A stretch of DNA of 64,000 nt from Thermosphaera aggregans (GTDB lineage Archaea > Thermoproteota > Thermoprotei_A > Sulfolobales > Desulfurococcaceae). Both the position numbers and the translations under genes were made by a program. Positions within the stretch are counted from its first letter, which is position 1, and every line of letters begins with the position of its first letter. The notes beneath the pieces are model-generated. The model worked only from the letters and a program-made list of their open reading frames with translations. It made no database searches and was not told the origin of the DNA. Shown here piece after piece: positions 5,322 to 19,948 of the stretch. Where the stretch lies: positions 548,582 through 612,581 of the forward strand of contig NZ_CP063144.1 of assembly GCF_014962245.1 (NCBI RefSeq), given 5' to 3'.

Positions 5322-6035
5322 ATGCTTATTGACATGCATGTTCACTGCAACGAGCTAAAAGACTTGGACCACTACTCTGGAAGCCACTTGTTTGCATGTG
5401 TTGCAGAGGACGTGGAGACAAGTAAGGCTACCATTGAGCTTTCCAGGCGGTTCCATTTCATCAAGCCCTGCGTCGGGATCCATCCATGGAATATTGCTCG
5501 TTCAAGCGTTGAAGAGGCGAGGAGCCTCATGGAGATAGCTGTTTCAAACAATATTGAGTGCTTAGGTGAGGTGGGGCTTGACTCTAGGTTTGTCCCGGAG
5601 ACGCTTCCACGTCAACGAGAGGTTTTCAAAATCTTCCTAGATTATGCCAGGGAGTACGATCTAGTCCTGAACCTTCACACAGCTGGGACGCACAGGGAGG
5701 TGTTCCAAATGCTTAAAACATGGCGGGTTGAGAAAGCATATTTCCACTGGTATACTGGCCCCGAGGATCTTATCAAGGAGTTGATAGATAGCGGGTATTT
5801 TATCGGTGTAAACCCTTCATGGAAGATCCAGGAGAAGCATTACAGGATAATCTCCAAAACCCCGTTAAGCAACTTGTTAACAGAGAGTGATGCTCCATAC
5901 CAGTATAAAAGCCTTAGCTTAAACCCCGAGCTGATCAGTGATTCGTTAGACCTTTTAGCAAGGCTTCACAACCTGGATAGAGAAATCGTTGAGGAAAAGA
6001 TTGAGGAAAATTTTAGGAGACTCTTCACGCGGTGA
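5322..6035 (+). CDS. TatD-family metal-dependent hydrolase
   Basis: A 237-residue TIM-barrel hydrolase of the TatD type. The metal ligands can be followed: HVH at residues 6-8, Glu in GEVGLDSRF, His in NLHTAGTH, His in YFHWYTG, and the final Asp in TESDAPY. TatD proteins are Mg-dependent DNases or phosphoesterases in the cases studied; the substrate here is unknown. ATG start. A TATA-like, AT-rich stretch lies 30-60 nt upstream. Its last 11 nt overlap the convergent gene at 6025. Length is slightly below the bacterial norm of about 260. Confidence 0.88.
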   Translation: MLIDMHVHCNELKDLDHYSGSHLFACVAEDVETSKATIELSRRFHFIKPCVGIHPWNIARSSVEEARSLMEIAVSNNIECLGEVGLDSRFVPETLPRQREVFKIFLDYAREYDLVLNLHTAGTHREVFQMLKTWRVEKAYFHWYTGPEDLIKELIDSGYFIGVNPSWKIQEKHYRIISKTPLSNLLTESDAPYQYKSLSLNPELISDSLDLLARLHNLDREIVEEKIEENFRRLFTR

Positions 6036-6318
6036 CGATTGCGCCCTGGTTTTGAGTACTCAGTACACTGTCCTTTAGCGATGCAAAGACGAGGATTCCT
6101 TTCGGTTTAAACACTATTGTTATCTCATAAATGTTTGCATCTATTACAATGCTGCGGGGAAGGGGACGTTTAAGCTCTTTCGACAAGAACAAGTGAGATC
6201 TGACAACATCCTTCGATGCTTCAACAACCTCATCCATCTCCTTCTTAGATATGCTGGATAAGGGGTAGATTTCCACTAGTTCTCCATTATAGTCGAGTCT
6301 TGCAACTACTATTCTCAA
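6025..6318 (-). CDS. Uncharacterised small protein
   Basis: A 97-residue protein that I do not recognise. It alternates short hydrophobic strands and charged helices (start IVVARLDYNGELVEIYPL, a helix rich in Glu/Lys in the middle, then IYEITIVFKPKGILVFASL), suggesting a compact alpha/beta fold. No cysteine or histidine clusters and no membrane segments. It overlaps the end of the TatD gene by 11 nt and sits 33 nt downstream of the HTH-coiled-coil gene on the same strand, so the two may be cotranscribed. Confidence 0.55.
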   Translation of the reverse strand: MRIVVARLDYNGELVEIYPLSSISKKEMDEVVEASKDVVRSHLFLSKELKRPLPRSIVIDANIYEITIVFKPKGILVFASLKDSVLSTQNQGAIVTA

Positions 6319-6351
6319 AACAACCCCTAATGCTTATCAAACCATTAATGT

Positions 6352-7014
6352 TTAAAAACCGGCGGACTCTAACAGCTTTTTCAACTCTCCTATAAGCCTG
6401 GTCAATGATTCCAGCTTGTTCATTAAATCCTGGTTCTTGGATGAAAGAGCTTTGTTCTGCTCGCTTAGATCAATTATTAGTTTTTCCTTCTCACTAATCA
6501 AGGATTCGAGTTCCACTATTCGCTTCCTAGCCTCTTCTAACTGGGATTTGAGCATTGTGTTCTCCCTCCTTGCCTCCTCTAGCTCAGCCTCCAGCTTCTT
6601 CACCCTCTCCTCCTCGATTTTGAACCCGCTTACAAACGGGAACGAGAGCTTCAACTCCCCGGCTTTCAGCTTCTCATATGTTTCCGCCACCAGTTTTCCA
6701 GCCTTAGTCTTCCCTGATAGGTGAGACCTAATGGTTGTCTCGCTCCTACCCAGTTCCTCGGCTATTTGAGGCACCATCATCCCCGCCTTGCTCCTGGCCA
6801 GCGCTGATGCAGCAATAGCCAGGCTGTCAACCCATGTAGCCCTCTCAACAGGGTCTTTTAACAGCTCCACTATCTCTGGGCGGAACAATGTCCCTATGAT
6901 TAAAGCGGTCTCCAACTGCTGAATCTCCTTCTTCCCCACCGGCTTCACTGGAATATTGGACAGGTCTACAATTACCTCCACGGGTCTCCTCGCTTCCTGG
7001 ATTGGCTCACTCAT
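6352..7014 (-). CDS. HTH and coiled-coil protein, probable transcription regulator
   Basis: A 220-residue protein in two parts. Residues about 30-120 are helical and include a helix-turn-helix-like segment (MMVPQIAEELGRSETTIRSHL). Residues about 130-218 form a long heptad-patterned coiled coil (repeating leucine positions in KKLEAELEEARREN and later). The combination suggests a DNA-binding protein that dimerises or recruits a partner through the coiled coil. It resembles predicted crenarchaeal regulators, but its targets and ligand are unknown. ATG start. It may share a transcript with the small gene downstream at 6025. Confidence 0.7.
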   Translation of the reverse strand: MSEPIQEARRPVEVIVDLSNIPVKPVGKKEIQQLETALIIGTLFRPEIVELLKDPVERATWVDSLAIAASALARSKAGMMVPQIAEELGRSETTIRSHLSGKTKAGKLVAETYEKLKAGELKLSFPFVSGFKIEEERVKKLEAELEEARRENTMLKSQLEEARKRIVELESLISEKEKLIIDLSEQNKALSSKNQDLMNKLESLTRLIGELKKLLESAGF

Positions 7015-8976: not shown

Positions 8977-10068
8977 ATGCGCGTGGATAAGCAAAAGCTT
9001 AGAGAAATAGTTAGGGAGCTTAAAAAGTGGAAGGCACATGCTACAATCCTGCTCAGCCTGTACGTCCCTCCTGGAAGACCCGTTAGCGATGTCTTAAACA
9101 TGCTGAGGCAGGAGCTATCCATCACAGACAACATTAAGCTGAAGAAGACCAAGTCTGCTGTTCAAAGAGCTCTCTCAATGGCTATAGACAGGCTCAGCAA
9201 GATCCCGAAGATCCCGGACAAGGGGCTGGTGTTGTTCGCCGGCGAGAACCCGGATACCGGGGAATCAATACTGGTAATGCTGATCCCTCCGGAGGAGGTT
9301 CCAGTATATTTCTACAGAACCGATAAGCACTTCCACACAGAGTTTCTCGAGGAGATGGTTTCCGAGTCCAACATCATTGGGCTTCTCCTCATAGAAAGGG
9401 ATGCGGCAACGATCGGCATGCTTAAAGGAAACAGGCTGAAGATTGTCGAGGAGCTTGAGGACTACATCCCTGGTAAGCATGAGAAGGGTGGTCAGAGCCA
9501 GCGGAGGTACGACAGGATTATTGAGCAAATGGTTGAAGAGTTTTACAAGAGGGTTGGAGAGCATGCTAACAGAGTCTTCCTACCACTTCACGAGCAGGGG
9601 AAGTTGAAGGGGATTCTAGTAGGCGGCCCAGCCTATGCGAAGTACGACTTCCTGGAGAAGGACTACCTGGATTACAGGCTGAAGAAGATTGTCCTGCCGG
9701 AGCTGATAGATGTAGGGTATCAGGGTGAGGCAGGCCTCAGGGAAATGATCTTGAAGGCTGGAGACCTGCTGAAGGAGCAGGAGTATGCAGATCTTTTAAA
9801 ATACATTGAAGAGTTCAAACTACACCTAGCAAAGGACGACGGGCTTATCGTGTACGGTGAGGAAGAGGTTAGGAATGCTCTGGAGATGGGGATGGTTGCA
9901 GTGCTGATTATTAGTGAGGAGCGCGAGGATGTTGAGCAGTGGCTAGAGCTGGCTAAGAAGGGCGGGGCTAAGGCGCTGGTTCTCAGCAGTGATGTTCCAG
10001 AATCAGAATGGTTTAACAAGACATTCAACGGGTTAGCAGGTATTCTCCGCGTAAGACTATACAGTTAA
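8977..10068 (+). CDS. prf1: Peptide chain release factor aRF1
   Basis: The archaeal class-1 release factor (363 residues), which reads all three stop codons in the ribosomal A site and triggers peptidyl-tRNA hydrolysis. The catalytic GGQ is at 171-173 (KHEKGGQSQRR) in the middle domain. In the N-terminal domain the stop-decoding NIKS loop reads NIKL (52-55) and the YxCxxxF loop reads YRTDKHF (113-119), so Ser and Cys positions are changed to Leu and Thr. I believe similar changes occur in other Crenarchaeota but cannot verify that here. The C-terminal domain (about 270-363) contacts ABCE1 and aIF-like GTPases. ATG start; the rest of the protein is full length and canonical. Confidence 0.97.
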   Translation: MRVDKQKLREIVRELKKWKAHATILLSLYVPPGRPVSDVLNMLRQELSITDNIKLKKTKSAVQRALSMAIDRLSKIPKIPDKGLVLFAGENPDTGESILVMLIPPEEVPVYFYRTDKHFHTEFLEEMVSESNIIGLLLIERDAATIGMLKGNRLKIVEELEDYIPGKHEKGGQSQRRYDRIIEQMVEEFYKRVGEHANRVFLPLHEQGKLKGILVGGPAYAKYDFLEKDYLDYRLKKIVLPELIDVGYQGEAGLREMILKAGDLLKEQEYADLLKYIEEFKLHLAKDDGLIVYGEEEVRNALEMGMVAVLIISEEREDVEQWLELAKKGGAKALVLSSDVPESEWFNKTFNGLAGILRVRLYS

Positions 10069-10123
10069 ATGGTAACACGTCCTCGATAACGTTATTAAGT
10101 TTCAAAAACCAATATATTAGTAG

Positions 10124-10405
10124 GTGTCTCCTACAGTGGGTGAGCTAAGACTCGATCCTTCATTCAGGAGAGAACTCATCTCCCTAATAATCAACGCCGG
10201 CCTCGAAGAAGACTTCATCGAATGGCTGAAGACCCAGGGAAGGACTCACATAATAGGCAAGATGGATAACGTGCCGGACGAACTGCTACTGGTTTATATT
10301 AGGGAGAAAAAGCTCACTGTTGAAGAAGAAACGGTCATACCGGAAAGGGTTGAGGCCGGCCCCGAGGACGACTTGTATATTAAGAGCAGGGAAGGGAGAA
10401 GATAG
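10124..10405 (+). CDS. Small conserved-type crenarchaeal protein
   Basis: A 93-residue acidic protein (89 if it starts at GTG 10136) that I do not recognise. The body is helical (FRRELISLIINAGLEEDFIEWLK) and the tail is polar and rich in Glu/Asp. It has no cysteines, no membrane segment and no clear nucleotide-binding motif. The start at GTG 10124 follows TTATTAAG at about 10091, which is at a good promoter distance for a nearly leaderless transcript. It lies 55 nt after aRF1 and may be read with it. Codon use matches aRF1. Confidence 0.6.
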   Translation: MSPTVGELRLDPSFRRELISLIINAGLEEDFIEWLKTQGRTHIIGKMDNVPDELLLVYIREKKLTVEEETVIPERVEAGPEDDLYIKSREGRR

Positions 10406-10460
10406 CCTTTTCTAGCTTACGGTGATTGTTTTTAAACCGTGATGTTCACGGCAAAGGATT

Positions 10461-11912: not shown

Positions 11913-12440
11913 TTACTGCATCATTACGAGATGCTCCAGCTCCTCCGGTATTCCATTAGTTCTCGCTATCTCACGGAACACTAGAGCGCTAGGGCGGAGA
12001 TATCTTTTCTTTGTTTTAAAGTCGACCATGACTAGTCCAAACCTCTGCCTGAACCCCTGGGCCCACTCGTAATTGTCTGTCAGGCTCCAGTGGAGATAGC
12101 CTTTCACAGGTATTCCCTCGTTTACTGCTTTCCACACGTTGTAGACGTGGGAGACAAGGTATGCAGGTCTTAACGCATCCCTACTATCTGAAACCCCGTT
12201 CTCAGTCACGATCAAGTCGACTCTGTAACGGTTGAAGAGTTCTTTCAACAGTAGGTAGAGTCCTTCAGGATAAGCCTCCCATCCGAAATCGCTGCACGGG
12301 TTTCCAGCAGGGCTGTATCCTCTGGGAGTGCAGGTGTACCCGTATCCGGGTTTTAAAACTGGCTTGCCGTTGACGAATTGGAAGACTACACGACTGTAGT
12401 AGTTAACGCCCAGCCAGTCGAGCCGGCTAGCGCTGCCCAC
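11913..12440 (-). pseudogene. Beta-glycosidase GH1, C-terminal remnant
   Basis: About 170 residues matching the last third of an archaeal family-1 beta-glycosidase (full length about 480). The nucleophile Glu is present in VTENGVSD and the aglycone-site block YLHWSLTDNYEWAQGF is intact, with DWLGVNYYSR at the front. The N-terminal two thirds, including the barrel start and the acid/base Glu (the NEP motif), are missing. The frame is open back to 12440, where the DNA passes into an MFS transporter N-terminus in another frame. It cannot encode an active enzyme. It reads very like the beta-glycosidases of Thermosphaera and Sulfolobus. The remnant ends 21 nt after tRNA-Cys. Confidence 0.9.
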
Positions 12441-12871
12441 GAGTAGTTCCTGCCCACGTTAACCCTGTCCTCTAAAACACTGCTTAACGCAATGGTCACT
12501 GCTAGGTTGTGTGAGAAAGCATACCCTGCAACAGCAAGGATTTTCAAAACCCAGTTCTCAACCGTGAAAAGATGCCAGAGCAGTAAGCTTCCAAGGAGCG
12601 ATAGCCAGAGAACCCTTCTCCTCCCGTAGACATCGCTCAAGCCTCCTACAATGAAGGAGAAAAGAGCGGGAGTGTACTCCGCGCTTACAAGGTAGAAGAC
12701 AAACCACTCCCCGTACACGTCGTTCCCGTAGAGAGGGCGTGAGATCACAACGTACATTGAATAAGCAGTATTCAGCAATCCAAGACCCATCAGATACTTC
12801 AGGCTGATCCTATTCCCCAATAAACCCCGACCTATAGAAAAACATTTAAGAAGGGAAATATAAGCGAACAA
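12386..12871 (-). pseudogene. MFS transporter, N-terminal remnant
   Basis: About 160 residues with the first four to five membrane segments of a major facilitator transporter. The family loop motif between helices 2 and 3 is present as GGLSDVYGRRRVL. Full MFS proteins have about 400 residues and 12 helices; here the frame ends at 12386, shortly after a segment with AALAGSTGWAL that still looks like helix 5. The final 55 nt overlap, in a different frame, the glycosidase remnant. The simplest reading is a deletion that removed the transporter's C-terminus and the glycosidase's N-terminus. The transporter probably carried the glycosidase's substrate or product. Confidence 0.82.
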
Positions 12872-12907: not shown

Positions 12908-14305
12908 CTACTTGTACTCCTGTATAATCTCCCACTGCCTCTGCGCAATAATATCCAAAGCCTCAGCAGGGGAAACCTCCCTTGCAACAGCCATGTTCAA
13001 ATACAGCTGCTGAACCTCCAGCAGCCGCCCATAGAACGGGACGTTCCAGAAGTCTTTCGCATACTTCACAGCCTCGGTGAAAACTCTTGCCCACGGCTTC
13101 GAGTCAAGGAACTCGGGATCCTGCGCCACCGACTTCCTCGCGGTGAACCCCACTCTCATAGAGTACTCCTTGTAAGCGACAGTGTAGAACCATTTCAGGA
13201 ACAGCTTAGCCTCCTCCTTATTCTTCGAGTACGAGCTTATCACTAATGGCTGGCCTCCCAGCGTGGTATACCTCGTGCCGTTGTGATGAGGCTGTATTGC
13301 CACCCCGGTTGCATTATAAACCCTGGATGTGTTGGGGTCGAACAATGCCGGGGCCATTGATGGCCATAGAATCGTCATTGCAACCCTACCTTGTGCATAA
13401 AGGGATATGACCTTGTCGTAGTCGAAGGTTGCAGGGCCCGGCGGCATGTAGTTGGTGAGGTCGACGAAGAATGTTAAAGCCTCCTTAGCCTTAGTGCTGT
13501 TGATATAGTTAACCGGGTTCTTAGTTACAGGATCCCATAGCTCCGCTCCCCAGCTCCAGAACACGCTCAGGAAAAAGCATGAGATGTAATCGTAGTCCCT
13601 GGACAATACGAGGGCTAAGCCGTAGAAGTCCTCTGTCAACGTTTTCCCTGCCAATGTCTCACCAGCCTTCCTTGTAAAGAACTCTGCAATGTCTTTTAAC
13701 TGAACCCAGTCTAAGTTCTTCCACTCCTCCAAAGTTGTCGGCAGATCGTACCCGTACCTAGCCCTGAACGCGGCTCTCTCATCCGGGTGGTTGAAGAGGT
13801 CTGTCCTGAAGTATAGGAGAGGGGTTGCATCAGCATACCCGGGTATTGCCACGTAGTTGTCACTGCCCTGTGGGTAAGCAGTGTAGAAGTATACAAGGTT
13901 CTCGAAAGTATCGTTCAGAACCGCATACTTGAGATCAGGATCGTTGAGTATGTAGTCCTTTAAAGATATTATGTGGCCTCCTTCATACAGCTCTCCAAGC
14001 CATTGACTATCAGCGAAAATAATGTCTACCTCGCTACTCTTAGCAGTCATAATGCTTGTTACACGCGTGTAATAGGTACCCCATGGAGTGAAGTCGAATT
14101 TAACGTTAACCTTATACCCAAGCTTCTCCTGAGCATAAGCCGTGAAATCCGCTGCCATCTGCTCCATTATCTTACCAGGCTCCCATTCAGGGCTTAGAAT
14201 AACGATGGTTACTTCCTTAGCTGGAGGTTGCGTCAAATAGTAGGCGGCAACAGCGACAATAATAATAGCTATAACTAGAATACCCACTAGCAGGGATGTT
14301 TTCAA
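12908..14305 (-). CDS. Sugar ABC transporter substrate-binding protein
   Basis: An extracellular solute-binding protein of family 1 (carbohydrate uptake, CUT1 type), about 465 residues. An N-terminal membrane anchor (VGILVIAIIIVAVAAYYL) with no lipobox cysteine is followed by two alpha/beta lobes (VTIVILSPEWEPGKIMEQMA, then DIIFADSQWLGELYEGG). It should tether to the membrane and deliver an oligosaccharide to the permeases encoded across the divergent promoter. Sugar specificity cannot be read from sequence. The start TTG at 14305 has GGTGGG just upstream; a longer frame from TTG 14317 is possible. The gene is divergent from the permease-ATPase operon with a dyad operator candidate between. 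Confidence 0.9.
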   Translation of the reverse strand: MKTSLLVGILVIAIIIVAVAAYYLTQPPAKEVTIVILSPEWEPGKIMEQMAADFTAYAQEKLGYKVNVKFDFTPWGTYYTRVTSIMTAKSSEVDIIFADSQWLGELYEGGHIISLKDYILNDPDLKYAVLNDTFENLVYFYTAYPQGSDNYVAIPGYADATPLLYFRTDLFNHPDERAAFRARYGYDLPTTLEEWKNLDWVQLKDIAEFFTRKAGETLAGKTLTEDFYGLALVLSRDYDYISCFFLSVFWSWGAELWDPVTKNPVNYINSTKAKEALTFFVDLTNYMPPGPATFDYDKVISLYAQGRVAMTILWPSMAPALFDPNTSRVYNATGVAIQPHHNGTRYTTLGGQPLVISSYSKNKEEAKLFLKWFYTVAYKEYSMRVGFTARKSVAQDPEFLDSKPWARVFTEAVKYAKDFWNVPFYGRLLEVQQLYLNMAVAREVSPAEALDIIAQRQWEIIQEYK

Positions 14306-14349
14306 TATACCCACCAATATGTATCTACACCATACACATTTATATGTTT

Positions 14350-14370
14350 AACTTAGTCTAAGTTTTATTA
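14350..14370. promoter_or_regulatory. Dyad operator candidate and TATA box in divergent sugar-ABC promoter
   Basis: AACTTAGTCTAAGTT (14350-14364) is a perfect 7+1+7 inverted repeat in the 80-90 nt between the binding-protein gene and the permease gene. It abuts TTTTATTA (14363-14370), a TATA-like box about 29 nt before the GTG start of the permease, which suggests a nearly leaderless transcript. A repressor bound here could shut both promoters. Archaeal sugar regulators such as TrmB bind palindromes in this position, but this sequence is not their known site. Confidence 0.5.
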
Positions 14371-14398
14371 AGTGCGAAGGCTTAGAAAACTATAAAAG

Positions 14399-15313
14399 GT
14401 GTCGGGTTTGGCGCGCTTCTATTTGAAGCGAGGAAAAATGGTGAACCCGTGGCTGCTAATACTTCCAGCTTTCCTGGTTTTGCTAGTTTTCAATATTTTC
14501 CCGCTTATATGGAGCCTAGGCATTTCCTTCCACAGGTTCTCAATAATTATTAGGGAAACGCCTAGGTATGTCGGCGGCTTAAACTATATTACAATGCTAA
14601 CTAGCCCTGAGGCATGGGACAGGTTGCAGAGGACTGGCACCTTCCTCTTCTATTCCCTCCTCTTCCAATTCGGCATAGCTTTAACAGTAGCACTCCTCAT
14701 GTTCGAGGATTTCAAGGGGAAGAGAACACTGCTCACGGTTTTCATGATACCGTTGATGATCGCGCCCATAGCCTCAGCATTATTCTTCAGGTACATGTTT
14801 GATGAAAACCTTGGACCAGTAAACAACTTCCTGGAATCAGTCCTCGGCACACGGGTCTTATGGTTCAGCAACGAGATCAGCCCTCTAGGAATCCCCTATT
14901 CATTGCTAACAGTGATAACGGTTGAAACATGGATATGGACTCCTTTCATAACCTTCCTCCTGATAGCGGGCATAAGCTCCATCCCAGGCGACCTGATAGA
15001 GCAGAGCAGGGTTGATTCTCTAAGATTCCGGTACAAGTTCAGATACATGATACTTCCCTACATCAAGCCCATGCTAGCCATAGCGTTAATCTTCAGATTC
15101 ATGGATGCGTTGAAAACATTCGACTCCATTTACGTCTTAACTGCCGGGGGCCCGGGCTCTACAACGGAGTTAATATCGGTTTACATTTACAAGCTCGCTT
15201 TCGAAAGATGGGATTTTGGTTCTGCAACGGCGATGAGCTACCTGGTCCTTGTCGTGGTGATTTTCATGACGAATGTTTTCATGAGATACGTTCTCGGAGG
15301 TGAGAAGGAGTGA
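14399..15313 (+). CDS. Sugar ABC transporter permease (MalF-like)
   Basis: First permease of the CUT1 transporter, 304 residues with six membrane helices. The EAA cytoplasmic loop that docks the ATPase reads SIPGDLIEQSRVDSLRFRYKFRYMILP (about 198-224). Its consensus EAAxxDGA is changed here to EQSRVDS while keeping the central Asp. It pairs with the next gene product to make the pore. The start is GTG at 14399; TTG at 14408 also has GGTG 6 nt upstream. It leads an operon of two permeases, two ATPases and a small membrane protein, divergent from the binding-protein gene. Confidence 0.92.
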   Translation: MSGLARFYLKRGKMVNPWLLILPAFLVLLVFNIFPLIWSLGISFHRFSIIIRETPRYVGGLNYITMLTSPEAWDRLQRTGTFLFYSLLFQFGIALTVALLMFEDFKGKRTLLTVFMIPLMIAPIASALFFRYMFDENLGPVNNFLESVLGTRVLWFSNEISPLGIPYSLLTVITVETWIWTPFITFLLIAGISSIPGDLIEQSRVDSLRFRYKFRYMILPYIKPMLAIALIFRFMDALKTFDSIYVLTAGGPGSTTELISVYIYKLAFERWDFGSATAMSYLVLVVVIFMTNVFMRYVLGGEKE

Positions 15314-16149
15314 GGGATTATAGGAGGGAGACACGGGTCTACAAGATTCGCAAATACCTGAAGCTGGGGATTCTAATCACTATTGTGGTTATCTACCTGC
15401 TCCCAATCTACGGGATGTTCAACCTTGCCTTCCGCCCCAGGGCTGAAATGTTCACCGGGTTCTTCGTCATAACGCAGCCTACCTTAGAGAACTTCGTAGA
15501 AGCATATGAGTACGGTGCTTACTCAGCGATAGTGAACTCAGCAATCATAACGGCTGGCGGAGTAGGCTTGGCGCTGGCCCTCGCCGTTCTCGCATCATAT
15601 GCTTTCTCAAGGTTTAAGGTGAAAGGTAAGAACCTCCTAATGTTCTACATCTTATCGACAAGAATGATGCCTCCTATAACACTGATAATCCCCATCTTCA
15701 TAATGTACTATACTGTAGGGTTGAAAGGCACATACCTCGGGTTAATCCTAGTATACGGAATGATGGCTCTCCCCCTATCGGTTTGGATGACGAAGAGCTT
15801 CATAGATGACGTGCCCAAGGATATTGATGAAGCCGCGATGATAGATGGGCATTCAACAATGTACATCTTATTCAAAATAGTGCTACCGATGGTTATCCCC
15901 GGGATAGCGGCATCAGCAGCCTTCGCCGCGATAACCATATGGAACGAGTTCCTCTTCGCACTGCTCCTCAGCGGAATAGACACCAAGCCAACCTCAGTAC
16001 TGCTGAGCAGTATAAGAGGGGAAAGGGGCTTCAACTGGGGCAGGGTTGCTGCCATAGAAGTAATATACATTATCCCGATAATAATACTGGTCTTCTGGCT
16101 TCAGAAACACATGCTGCGAGGACTCACTTTTGGAACAGTGAGGAGATAG
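15310..16149 (+). CDS. Sugar ABC transporter permease (MalG-like)
   Basis: Second CUT1 permease, 279 residues, six membrane helices. The EAA loop is canonical for the MalG group: DVPKDIDEAAMIDGHSTMYI (about 165-184) followed by KIVLPMVIPGIAA. GTG start at 15310 overlaps the stop of the first permease by 4 nt, implying translational coupling. It forms the heterodimeric pore with the product of the gene before it. Because this EAA loop is standard and that of its partner is altered, the two docking sites differ, in line with the two unlike ATPases that follow. Confidence 0.93.
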   Translation: MRDYRRETRVYKIRKYLKLGILITIVVIYLLPIYGMFNLAFRPRAEMFTGFFVITQPTLENFVEAYEYGAYSAIVNSAIITAGGVGLALALAVLASYAFSRFKVKGKNLLMFYILSTRMMPPITLIIPIFIMYYTVGLKGTYLGLILVYGMMALPLSVWMTKSFIDDVPKDIDEAAMIDGHSTMYILFKIVLPMVIPGIAASAAFAAITIWNEFLFALLLSGIDTKPTSVLLSSIRGERGFNWGRVAAIEVIYIIPIIILVFWLQKHMLRGLTFGTVRR

Positions 16150-16153
16150 TTTT

Positions 16154-17251
16154 ATGGAGAAAGCCTTGATCGTCTCAGAGATTGTTAAAAAGATTAGGGG
16201 CAAGGAGGTGTTGAAAAACGTTTCATTCGAAGTGGAGAAAGGCCAGTTGCTGGTGCTACTGGGGCCGCCTGGCTCCGGGAAAACAACGCTCTTAAAAATC
16301 ATAGCCGGCTTGGAGAAGCAGGATTCAGGCAGCATCTACATTAATGGTGTTAGAGTTGATGAAACTCCCCCATATGAGAGAAAAGTCTCCATGGTTTTCG
16401 AAACACTAGCGCTTTACTCGCACATGACGGTTTACGAGAACATCGCGTCTCCTATGGTAGCGGAGAAGAAGCCCAAGGATTTCATTGACAAGAGGGTAAG
16501 AGAGATAGCGGGTATTTTGAGGATAGAGCACCTCTTGGATAGGAGAGCGGACAAGCTCAGCGGGGGCGAGAGGCAGAGGGTTGCAGTAGCACGGGCCCTT
16601 GCTAAGGAAGCGGAGATATATCTGCTGGATGAACCGTTCTCGAATCTTGATGCTAAGATACGGTATGCTTTGAGAACAGAGTTTAAGAAGCTTAAAACAA
16701 TACTTGGTAAGACGCTCGTATTAGCAACCTCAGACCCCCTGGATGCTCTGGCGTTAGGGGATGCTGTTGTTTTCATTGAAAAAGGCGAGGTGGTTCAGAG
16801 GAGCACACCAGTTGAACTATACTACAAGCCTTCAAGGCTCGACATAGCAAGGTACTTAACCGGTAAGATTCTCAACGAGGTAATCGTGAAAAAGAAGGCA
16901 GAGGGCGGTAAAACAGTAATAATGAGTGAGCTGGACATTGCAATATCAGAGAGTGTTTTAAGAGATCTCCAGGAAATCCCAGCAGAGAACATAGTGTTAG
17001 CCTCCCACCCCGATACCGCCATCATTGAGAAATCAGTTGAGAATTGCGACGGCTTAAAGTTGAAGGGGAGGTTTCTCGGATACGAGTACAGGGGTAGCGA
17101 GTTCCTCGTTTTCGCAGAGTACAAGAATCACTTGTTCAAAGCCTTGAAGTACGAGAAACCCCTCATAGATTTCAACGAACCAGTCGAGGTTTGCATCAGC
17201 AGGGAGGGATTAAACTTCTACAACCTCGACACCGGGGCATTAGTGAGGTGA
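16154..17251 (+). CDS. Sugar ABC transporter ATPase 1, degenerate Q- and H-loops
   Basis: A MalK-type ATPase of 365 residues: nucleotide-binding domain about 1-230, then a regulatory beta domain. Walker A GPPGSGKTT (37-45), signature LSGGE (135-139), Walker B IYLLDE (155-160) and D-loop SNLD are normal. Two conserved residues are changed: the Q-loop Gln is Glu83 (MVFETLALYSHMT) and the H-loop His is Ser193 (LATSDPLDAL). Its own ATP pocket is therefore likely weak, while its signature motif can complete the partner's pocket. The gene begins 4 nt after the second permease. The partner is encoded 5 nt downstream and shows the opposite pattern. Confidence 0.93.
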   Translation: MEKALIVSEIVKKIRGKEVLKNVSFEVEKGQLLVLLGPPGSGKTTLLKIIAGLEKQDSGSIYINGVRVDETPPYERKVSMVFETLALYSHMTVYENIASPMVAEKKPKDFIDKRVREIAGILRIEHLLDRRADKLSGGERQRVAVARALAKEAEIYLLDEPFSNLDAKIRYALRTEFKKLKTILGKTLVLATSDPLDALALGDAVVFIEKGEVVQRSTPVELYYKPSRLDIARYLTGKILNEVIVKKKAEGGKTVIMSELDIAISESVLRDLQEIPAENIVLASHPDTAIIEKSVENCDGLKLKGRFLGYEYRGSEFLVFAEYKNHLFKALKYEKPLIDFNEPVEVCISREGLNFYNLDTGALVR

Positions 17252-17256
17252 AGCGA

Positions 17257-18375
17257 ATGGTTAGTGTTAGAATAGATAATGTTTCAAAATCCTTCGGAAG
17301 CGTTCAGGCCTTGAGAAATGTTTCCCTGGAGATAAGCAATGGAGAGTTCTTCGCTATTCTAGGCCCCAGCGGGTGTGGGAAAACAACTCTTTTAAGAATA
17401 ATAGCCGGGCTGGAAAAACCGACCAAGGGAAGGGTTCTATTTGACGAAATAGACGTTACCGATGTGCCTGCAGAGATTCGCGATGTCTCCATGGTTTTCC
17501 AGTTCTACGCTCTCTATCCAACCACGGTTTTCAACAATATCGCCTTACCTTTAAGGTCGAGAGGGCTTAGCCCTAGCGAAACACGTGAAAGAGTGGTGGA
17601 GATCGCTAAGCTAGTCGGGATTGAAAGCATACTCAACGCTCACGTTGACAGGTTAAGTGTTGCTGATAAGCAGAAGGTTGCACTGGCCAGGGCGATCGCT
17701 AAGGAGCCGCAACTATACCTTTTGGACGAACCATTAACCATCCTAGACCCGGTTTCGAGAGTGATTATGAGAGCTGAGTTGAAAAGGATTCAGAAAGAGC
17801 TTAAGCAAACAATAATATACGTTACCCATGACCAAATAGAGGCTTTAACCCTCGCGGACAAGATTGCAGTAATGAACTTCGGAGTTGTAGAGCAGGTTGG
17901 AACCTCGTCGGAAGTTTACGATCATCCAGAATCTGTTTTCGTTGGATGGTTCCTTGGCGAGCCGGGCATGAACTTCGTCGAGGCAAGTGTTGAGCAGGAC
18001 TCCTTGAGAATAGGCGGAAAACCGGTTTTAAGCGAGAGGAGAATACTGGAGGATTTGAAGAGCAAAGGTTATGAGAAGGTTTTAACAGGATTCCGCGCCG
18101 AGCACGTCAAGATTTCCAAAACCCCTGTCACGAGGCTGGATGGTGTTGCAGTCATTGAAGGGGTTGTCAGAGTTATCGAATTCATGGGAACCTACTATGT
18201 TGTAGATGTTGAGTCGGATAGCGCAGAATTTAAAGTGAAAATGGATCCAAGGATCTTCTCCAACTTATCGATCGGGGAGGGTGAAAGAGTCTGGTGTTCC
18301 ATACCGTTAGACAAAATACTTTTCTTCGACCCCGACAGTAGTAAAAGGATTGACGTAGGTGGTGGCAGTGGTTAA
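17257..18375 (+). CDS. Sugar ABC transporter ATPase 2, degenerate signature motif
   Basis: Second MalK-type ATPase, 372 residues. Walker A GPSGCGKTT (36-44), Q-loop Gln82 (MVFQFYALYP), Walker B LYLLDE (153-158) and switch His191 (VTHDQIEAL) are canonical, but the signature is LSVAD (133-137) instead of LSGGQ. Together with ATPase 1 this predicts a heterodimer with one consensus ATP site (this protein's Walker motifs with the LSGGE of ATPase 1) and one degenerate site. The rest is a regulatory domain with two beta modules. ATG at 17257 is preferred over an upstream in-frame ATG inside the previous gene. It ends within the start of a small membrane-protein gene. Confidence 0.93.
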   Translation: MVSVRIDNVSKSFGSVQALRNVSLEISNGEFFAILGPSGCGKTTLLRIIAGLEKPTKGRVLFDEIDVTDVPAEIRDVSMVFQFYALYPTTVFNNIALPLRSRGLSPSETRERVVEIAKLVGIESILNAHVDRLSVADKQKVALARAIAKEPQLYLLDEPLTILDPVSRVIMRAELKRIQKELKQTIIYVTHDQIEALTLADKIAVMNFGVVEQVGTSSEVYDHPESVFVGWFLGEPGMNFVEASVEQDSLRIGGKPVLSERRILEDLKSKGYEKVLTGFRAEHVKISKTPVTRLDGVAVIEGVVRVIEFMGTYYVVDVESDSAEFKVKMDPRIFSNLSIGEGERVWCSIPLDKILFFDPDSSKRIDVGGGSG

Positions 18376-18649
18376 GGTCAACAGAAGGCTTATTGAGGAA
18401 TTATTGATCATTATGGGGTTAATCAGCCTCGTACTAATTTTCCAGCCTGTCGACAAGACTTTGTACACTATTGGATGGAGCATAATTCTCGTCAGCACGC
18501 TCGGCTACGTCATATTCACTCTAATCCCGTCTCACACTACCGCCCCCAGGGAGCTGATCAAGAACTACTTCAAAACCTTAGTGATAGTGTTAATGGTGGT
18601 ATTGGGGTTCCTGCTCATATCGATCATTCTAACGCCTTACTTAGTGTAA
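18359..18649 (+). CDS. Small three-helix membrane protein
   Basis: A 96-residue (or slightly shorter) hydrophobic protein with three predicted membrane spans (about 14-29, 36-55 and 71-93). I do not recognise a family. The start overlaps the end of the ATPase 2 gene by 17 nt (GTG 18359; GTG at 18368 has GGTGG upstream), so it is the last gene of the sugar ABC operon and is likely translated with it. It could be an accessory subunit of the transporter or unrelated. Nothing in it points to catalysis. Confidence 0.6.
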   Translation: MVAVVKVNRRLIEELLIIMGLISLVLIFQPVDKTLYTIGWSIILVSTLGYVIFTLIPSHTTAPRELIKNYFKTLVIVLMVVLGFLLISIILTPYLV

Positions 18650-18715
18650 AGTCCTCGTTGAAAATCACAATCAAGTATTTTAGTGAAGTAAAACAAAATT
18701 TAAAATGGGATTAAG

Positions 18716-19948
18716 ATGGGAGGAAACAATTCTCTGAGAATAGGATTCCTCGGCTCAGGATTTGTTGCAAAATTCCATGCCCGAGCTTTTAAAATGGTGA
18801 GAAACGCGGAGATATCAGCCGTTTACTCGAGAAGCCAGGAGTCTGCTAAATCACTAGCCTCGTTCATAGAGTCGCTCGGGTTTAAGCGTCCTAAGATATA
18901 CACAGACATGCACGAGTTTGCTTCAGATAAAGATATTGACGCTGTGTGGATAATGCTTCCCAACAACCTGCATCTTGAGGCTACGAGGATTATTGCTGAG
19001 GAAGTCGTCCAGGGCAAGAGCAGCATTAAAGCCGTAGCTATCGAGAAACCCTTGGCCAGGAACATGAAGGAGGCTAATGAAATGATCAGGCTTGTCGAGA
19101 AGGCAGGCCTCCTTCACGGCTACTTGGAAAACCAGGTCTTCATGCCGTCTGTTATCAAGGGGAAGGAAGTAGTCTGGAGCATCGGAGCAAAGTACTCGGG
19201 AAGACCTTACCTTTCAAGAGCTGCGGAGGAGCATTCCGGACCGCACAATTCATGGTTCTGGGTTCCCAGCATATCGGGCGGGGGAGTATTAATAGATATG
19301 GCATGCCACAGTATAGAAGCCTCTAGGCACCTACTACTAGACCCGTCCAAGCCTAAGAGCTCGCTGAAGCCGGTGGAAATCTATGGTGAAACAGCGTTCC
19401 TGAAATGGGTTAAGCAGCCTTACGCGGATGATTTGAAGAAAAGGTTTAACGTTGACTTCCTTGAGGAGCCTGCCGAGGATTACGCGTTGACCGTGGTTAA
19501 ATACAGGGATGAAGACGGCAACGAGGTTGTAACCGAGGCGAGGACCTCGTGGTCGTTCGTGGGCGCTGGATTAAGGCTCACCTTTGAAGTGCTGGGCCCG
19601 GAGTACAGTTTATCAATCAATACTCTCCAGCCTGAACTGTTCACATTCATAAGCAGGAACATTAAGATACCGGCTAGTGAGGAGTTTGTTGAGAAACAGA
19701 ACGCGGAGCAAGGATTGATGCCTGTCCTACCCGACGAGGCCTTCACCTATGGGTATCAGGCTGAAGACGCCCACATGGTTGAATCCTTCCTAGCCGGTAA
19801 ACTCCCCTATGAGAACTGGTATGACGGGAGGCTTGTAGTAGAGTTAATGATGCACGCATATCTATCAGCTGAGAAAGGTTCAAGAATCCGGTACGACCCC
19901 TCTTCCGTAGAGGATTATACCCCATTCGTTGCAAGGAAAACAAAGTAG
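18716..19948 (+). CDS. Gfo/Idh/MocA-family oxidoreductase
   Basis: A 410-residue NAD(P)-dependent oxidoreductase of the glucose-fructose oxidoreductase/inositol dehydrogenase family. The N-terminal Rossmann fold has IGFLGSGFVAKFHARAF; the conserved EKPLARNMKEA motif holds the catalytic Lys; the C-terminal domain has the usual GGGVLIDMACHSIEASRHLL block with the active-site His. Such enzymes oxidise sugars or polyols. Its place straight after the sugar ABC operon suggests it acts on the imported sugar. ATG start; its TATA candidate is the AT-rich stretch just upstream (AAAATTTAAAA). Confidence 0.9.
   Translation: MGGNNSLRIGFLGSGFVAKFHARAFKMVRNAEISAVYSRSQESAKSLASFIESLGFKRPKIYTDMHEFASDKDIDAVWIMLPNNLHLEATRIIAEEVVQGKSSIKAVAIEKPLARNMKEANEMIRLVEKAGLLHGYLENQVFMPSVIKGKEVVWSIGAKYSGRPYLSRAAEEHSGPHNSWFWVPSISGGGVLIDMACHSIEASRHLLLDPSKPKSSLKPVEIYGETAFLKWVKQPYADDLKKRFNVDFLEEPAEDYALTVVKYRDEDGNEVVTEARTSWSFVGAGLRLTFEVLGPEYSLSINTLQPELFTFISRNIKIPASEEFVEKQNAEQGLMPVLPDEAFTYGYQAEDAHMVESFLAGKLPYENWYDGRLVVELMMHAYLSAEKGSRIRYDPSSVEDYTPFVARKTK

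Follow-up and report, generated by a model that had tools for sequence, protein, structure and literature searches.

The two adjacent ATPase genes of a sugar importer in Thermosphaera aggregans, here called S and T, very probably encode an obligate heterodimer of a CUT1-type importer with one complete and one degenerate ATP site; we infer both the assembly and the one-site hydrolysis from sequence. The stretch of DNA analysed (hereafter the window) covers 64,000 nucleotides of contig NZ_CP063144.1, and the importer locus, with its neighbouring genes, lies at positions 12908-19948:

12908..14317, minus strand: solute-binding protein (SBP), trehalose/maltose-binding-protein-like, divergently transcribed (PF01547)
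14399..15313, plus strand: F-type permease (PF00528), with an altered EAA loop, EQSRVDSLRF
15310..16149, plus strand: G-type permease (PF00528), with a canonical EAA loop, EAAMIDGHST
16154..17251, plus strand: S, GlpS-like ATPase 1, 365 aa, signature kept and Q/H residues lost
17257..18375, plus strand: T, GlpT-like ATPase 2, 372 aa, Q/H residues kept, signature and D-loop altered
18362..18649, plus strand: small hydrophobic protein of 95 aa following T, present in 7/7 orthologous loci
18716..19948, plus strand: GFO/IDH/MocA oxidoreductase (PF01408)

The start of T was set at the ATG at 17257, which was preferred over a longer open reading frame beginning with TTG at 17191, and 5 bases separate it from the stop of S. 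The ATPases combine a MalK-type nucleotide-binding domain with a C-terminal regulatory domain, and two BPD_transp_1 permeases and an SBP adjoin them, as in CUT1 (MalK/UgpC-type) ABC importers. The altered EAA loop reported by the first-pass annotation for one permease was recovered in the first of the two (EQSRVDSLRF vs EAAMIDGHST in the second). The alteration is mild; its Gly position is occupied by Ser in five of the seven orthologues and by Gly in the remaining two.

Motifs of S and T and the predicted ATP pockets

The residues that set the two chains apart are located as follows:

16400..16402, plus strand: S Glu83 codon, at the position of the Q-loop Gln (MVFE); Glu invariant in 7 orthologues
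16556..16570, plus strand: S signature LSGGE, residues 135-139, read from the sequence
16730..16732, plus strand: S Ser193 codon, at the position of the H-loop His (LATSD); orthologues have Ser (6 of 7) or Pro (1 of 7)
17500..17502, plus strand: T Gln82 codon, Q-loop (MVFQ); invariant in orthologues
17653..17667, plus strand: T degenerate signature LSVAD, residues 133-137; LSVAD, ISVAD, LSVAE, LNVAD, LNIAD or LSIGD in orthologues
17737..17751, plus strand: T D-loop TILDP (usually SNLDA); TILDP in 7/7 orthologues, TVIDP in GlpT
17827..17829, plus strand: T His191 codon, H-loop (YVTHD); invariant in orthologues

The translations agreed with the motif assignments proposed earlier for both chains, S retaining LSGGE with the Q-loop Gln replaced by Glu83 and the H-loop His by Ser193, and T retaining Gln82 and His191 with LSVAD in place of the signature. 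The Walker A Lys and the Walker B Asp and catalytic Glu were intact in both S and T, as was the D-loop Asp; S possessed LLDEP followed by the D-loop SNLDA, and T also possessed LLDEP. The aromatic A-loop residue was absent from S in this genus (KKIR for KxYG). Three further MalK-type ATPases encoded by this genome were canonical.

In ABC transporters the D-loop, like the signature, faces the pocket of the partner chain. Each pocket comprises Walker A and B and the A-, Q- and H-loops of one chain, and is completed by the signature of the other (PMC7756269). Because each pocket draws on both chains, the Q-loop, H-loop, signature, D-loop and A-loop changes of S and T all hit one pocket, and the TILDP D-loop of T adds a further change, beyond those recognised earlier, on the same side of that pocket. 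The proposal that pairing S with T gives one consensus and one degenerate pocket was thereby borne out as an asymmetry in the sequence of the two pockets.

In the proposed mechanism, S and T would assemble as the two unlike ATPase subunits of one importer. The first pocket, formed by the Walker A and B motifs, Q-loop and H-loop of T with the LSGGE signature and D-loop of S, would be complete and would hydrolyse ATP. The second, in which the Walker A and B motifs, Glu and Ser of S would face the LSVAD signature and altered D-loop of T, would probably bind ATP and hydrolyse it slowly or not at all, and may act as a clamp or sensor. Since the Walker A Lys and the Walker B Asp and Glu are intact in S, this degenerate site may retain hydrolysis. 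A heterodimer in which both sites hydrolyse ATP, the changes merely slowing one site or tuning coupling to the unlike permeases, is unlikely but deserves serious consideration: neither chain has lost Walker A, the Walker B Glu or the D-loop Asp, the Glu and Ser replacements are polar, and the two permeases differ in their EAA loops. Against it, the Q-loop, H-loop, signature and D-loop changes all affect a single pocket and persist in different phyla.

Conservation and integrity of the pair

Profile searches across 214 genomes of the order placed the S and T matches in the identical 7 genomes, all of one family. The seven S orthologues had E-values of 1e-176 or better, the other matches reaching about 1e-94 at best, and the seven T orthologues were at or below 1e-191, with no other match passing 1e-135. 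In all seven genomes, the window included, the S and T genes were adjacent and the complementary pattern was intact. Glu83 and SGG of S and the Gln and His of T were invariant in the seven orthologous pairs, whose identity ranged between 50% and 85%. This invariance, together with the canonical MalK-type paralogues and the low dN/dS reported below, indicates that the motif changes did not arise by chance. The divergent SBP, the two permeases and the 95-aa membrane protein were also conserved around the orthologous pairs, and a GFO/IDH/MocA gene adjoined the operon or lay close to it in the window and in six of the seven displayed loci.

The constant association of S and T bears on whether they act together at all. 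Some CUT1 ATPases, such as MsmX, serve several importers, and this genome contains further canonical MalK-type genes, so that each of the two chains might homodimerise, or one might serve other importers in a shared or regulatory role. Such an arrangement is very unlikely, as an S homodimer would be without the Q- and H-loop residues at both sites and a T homodimer without the signature at both, and the two genes were always adjacent and co-occurring.

Relative to the nearest congener, dN/dS was about 0.04 for S and about 0.06 for T, with dS near saturation, and both genes are under purifying selection. The AF2 single-chain models (pLDDT 91.2 for S and 92.7 for T) were both complete MalK-like folds, that of S including the C-terminal domain, and the S model, the one matched against the PDB, aligned with the MalK, PH0203 and MsmX structures along its entire length. 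The low dN/dS and the confident full folds indicate that neither S nor T is a remnant. Motif losses alone can resemble decay, and the adjoining MFS/GH1 stretch is broken, but the dN/dS of 0.04-0.06, the invariance of the replacement residue Glu83 in 7 genomes and the full-length confident folds make decay of one or both genes, with the importer dead or driven by another ATPase, extremely improbable.

Tandem ATPase pairs elsewhere and the age of the S/T lineage

Among 63 adjacent pairs scored, which were mostly found through similarity to S or T so that the count describes this lineage and not random tandem ATPases, 60 were complementary, 2 were symmetric and 1 was of another kind (L044, not S/T). 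Both kinds of loss within one gene were seen in none of the 63 adjacent pairs. The 60:0 count does not amount to 60 trials, as pairs of the same lineage are not independent and only about two origins (S/T and Lokiarchaeal) are clearly distinct. Fully canonical motifs were found in 121 single genes, the exceptions being mostly pairs that the overlap rule missed or ATPases of non-CUT1 type; the GlpST pairs L165, L181 and L182 appeared among the singles owing to overlap of their stop-to-stop frames. In 7/7 orthologous pairs, and likewise in each S/T-type pair from other sources, one gene carried the Q/H losses and its partner the signature loss, and the independent, uncorrelated motif changes in homologous pairs that the first-pass annotation had named as evidence against its reading were absent from the survey.

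In an alignment-based motif table, archaeal pairs from further families and lineages (L022, L023, L105, L123, L124, L131, L145) showed the same split. S of the Ignisphaera type retained the His, its sole change being Gln to Glu. A contig scan with the Walker A and signature peptides of S recovered mostly ordinary ATPases, plus the Ignisphaera and Lokiarchaeal pairs. Bacterial glp operons were reached with a GlpT fragment as starting query. Their GlpS possessed LSGGQ and YATTE (His to Thr) and their GlpT possessed LTADA-type signatures with VFQ and YVTHD kept, and the losses were complementary in every bacterial GlpST pair examined, a Streptomyces pair among them. Relatives of GlpT were found in 253 plasmid records and, within one bacterial phylum, in 56 of the 299 genomes sampled. 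The dihydroxyacetone-kinase-linked pair of Shinella (L108, 3965-6083), considered as GlpST-like, was rejected as both genes are canonical, which makes it a symmetric control.

In a tree of the ATPase domain only, with the motif columns removed, S and GlpS formed one side of a branch (99/96) and T and GlpT formed one clade (99/94), with two Ignisphaera-type T rows unplaced outside the T clade; constraining all T to a single clade was not rejected (p-AU 0.22). The GlpS branch was long (1.11) and several deep forks were weak. Archaeal loci L152 and L157 encoded GlpV/P/Q-like proteins, with DUF2160 in L157 and an FGGY kinase in L152, and bridge the window-type importer and the bacterial glycerol system. 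The S/T pair belongs to an old lineage that includes bacterial GlpS/GlpT and extends beyond this one archaeon.

Complementary tandem ATPases of non-CUT1 type were present in Lokiarchaeal contigs (L064, 4804-7206; L066, 5935-8321; L069, 5277-7715). The chain with FGNPG kept Gln and His, and the chain with SGGM had Gln changed to Glu and His to Asn; in L064 and L066 the signature FGNPG stands opposite MFE/VTNE. As L064 and L066 fell among non-CUT1 ATPases in the tree, their complementary split is probably of separate origin. The L064 pair is accompanied by a fused permease and, judging by eye alone, by PhoU-like and PiT-like genes. In a Desulfovirgula MAG (L080), nearby ATPases at 5953-6717 and 9300-10454 possessed ISSSM and LSGGM respectively, the latter with Asn for the H-loop His, and are possibly another complementary pair.

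A convergent likeness to GlpST, with the archaeal pair of separate origin, is improbable. The long GlpS branch (1.11) and weak deep forks, the position of the Ignisphaera-type T outside the T clade and the Lokiarchaeal pairs, which show that convergence is possible, would allow it, but S groups with GlpS (99/96) and T with GlpT (99/94) with the motifs masked, and L152 and L157 link both types through their GlpV/P/Q-like proteins and, in L157, DUF2160. The complementarity of S and T therefore appears to be an old, widespread design and no local oddity. On balance, the degenerate-site heterodimer is likely to be an old and stable design of type I importers, with the S/T lineage spanning Thermoproteota, Pseudomonadota and Actinomycetota, the glycerol importer having a single active site and the Lokiarchaeal split being separate.

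The textbook example of two equal, cooperating ATP sites is the maltose-type importer. A conserved branch with one complete site in bacteria that are easy to culture (Rhizobium glpST) would offer a direct test bed for one versus two ATP per sugar, and would also let the role of a degenerate site be probed, which has so far been done mostly in exporter studies.

Known transporters, putative substrate and neighbouring genes

According to a passage in PMC7912956 that cites Ding 2012, GlpST is part of a six-protein importer with two ATPases, GlpSTPQUV, in Rhizobium leguminosarum, and GlpST is co-induced by glycerol in Ralstonia (PMC11223650). GlpS and GlpT resemble the window genes as adjacent CUT1 ATPases, with S before T, the losses divided in the same way and a position as clade partners. 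Unlike S, GlpS keeps the Q-loop Gln, His alone being changed (to Thr or Ser), and its Walker A is GPTLSGKT; the bacterial glp operon carries DUF2160, GlpV and GlpK/GlpD, whereas the window possesses a trehalose/maltose-type SBP and no DUF2160.

MalK, UgpC and GlcV share the fold and subfamily of S and T, but each is a single gene with all motifs canonical, forming a homodimer with two equal sites. The exporters TM287/288, TmrAB and BmrCD combine one consensus with one degenerate pocket (PMC7756269, PMC4046567), as predicted for S/T, but belong to another family, and the Walker B Glu usually changed there is intact here (PMC7756269). In RbsA/NupO, also importer ATPases, one site of the pair is likewise degenerate, but the two halves are fused in one chain, the Walker A Lys is lost in the second half and the importer class is different (PMC11466899). 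In open PMC text, no account was found of a degenerate site in any CUT1 importer, GlpST included.

The best PDB match of the SBP was the trehalose/maltose-binding protein 1eu8 (E 6.9e-29). At the window locus, the whole glycerol system GlpSTPQUV was not found, with no GlpV-type SBP, DUF2160 or adjoining glpK/glpD and with the GFO/IDH/MocA gene as neighbour instead, and glycerol is not supported by the gene content as the importer's substrate. The 95-aa protein recalls DUF2160 (GlpU), the small membrane protein of glp operons, without sequence likeness; hhalign gave a probability of 0.1 and no Pfam family matched, so that it was rejected as a GlpU/DUF2160 counterpart.

In a congener, the region upstream of the importer and the MFS gene includes a GH16 beta-glucanase-like gene (L146, 450-2150, minus strand), a hint of a beta-glucan substrate. 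In the window (11913-12871, minus strand), the MFS gene breaks off after about 150 residues, its full-length counterparts in two congeners measuring 382-417 aa, and in an overlapping frame the truncated gene continues into the C-terminal portion of a GH1 beta-glycosidase, which looks like the result of a deletion that fused them.
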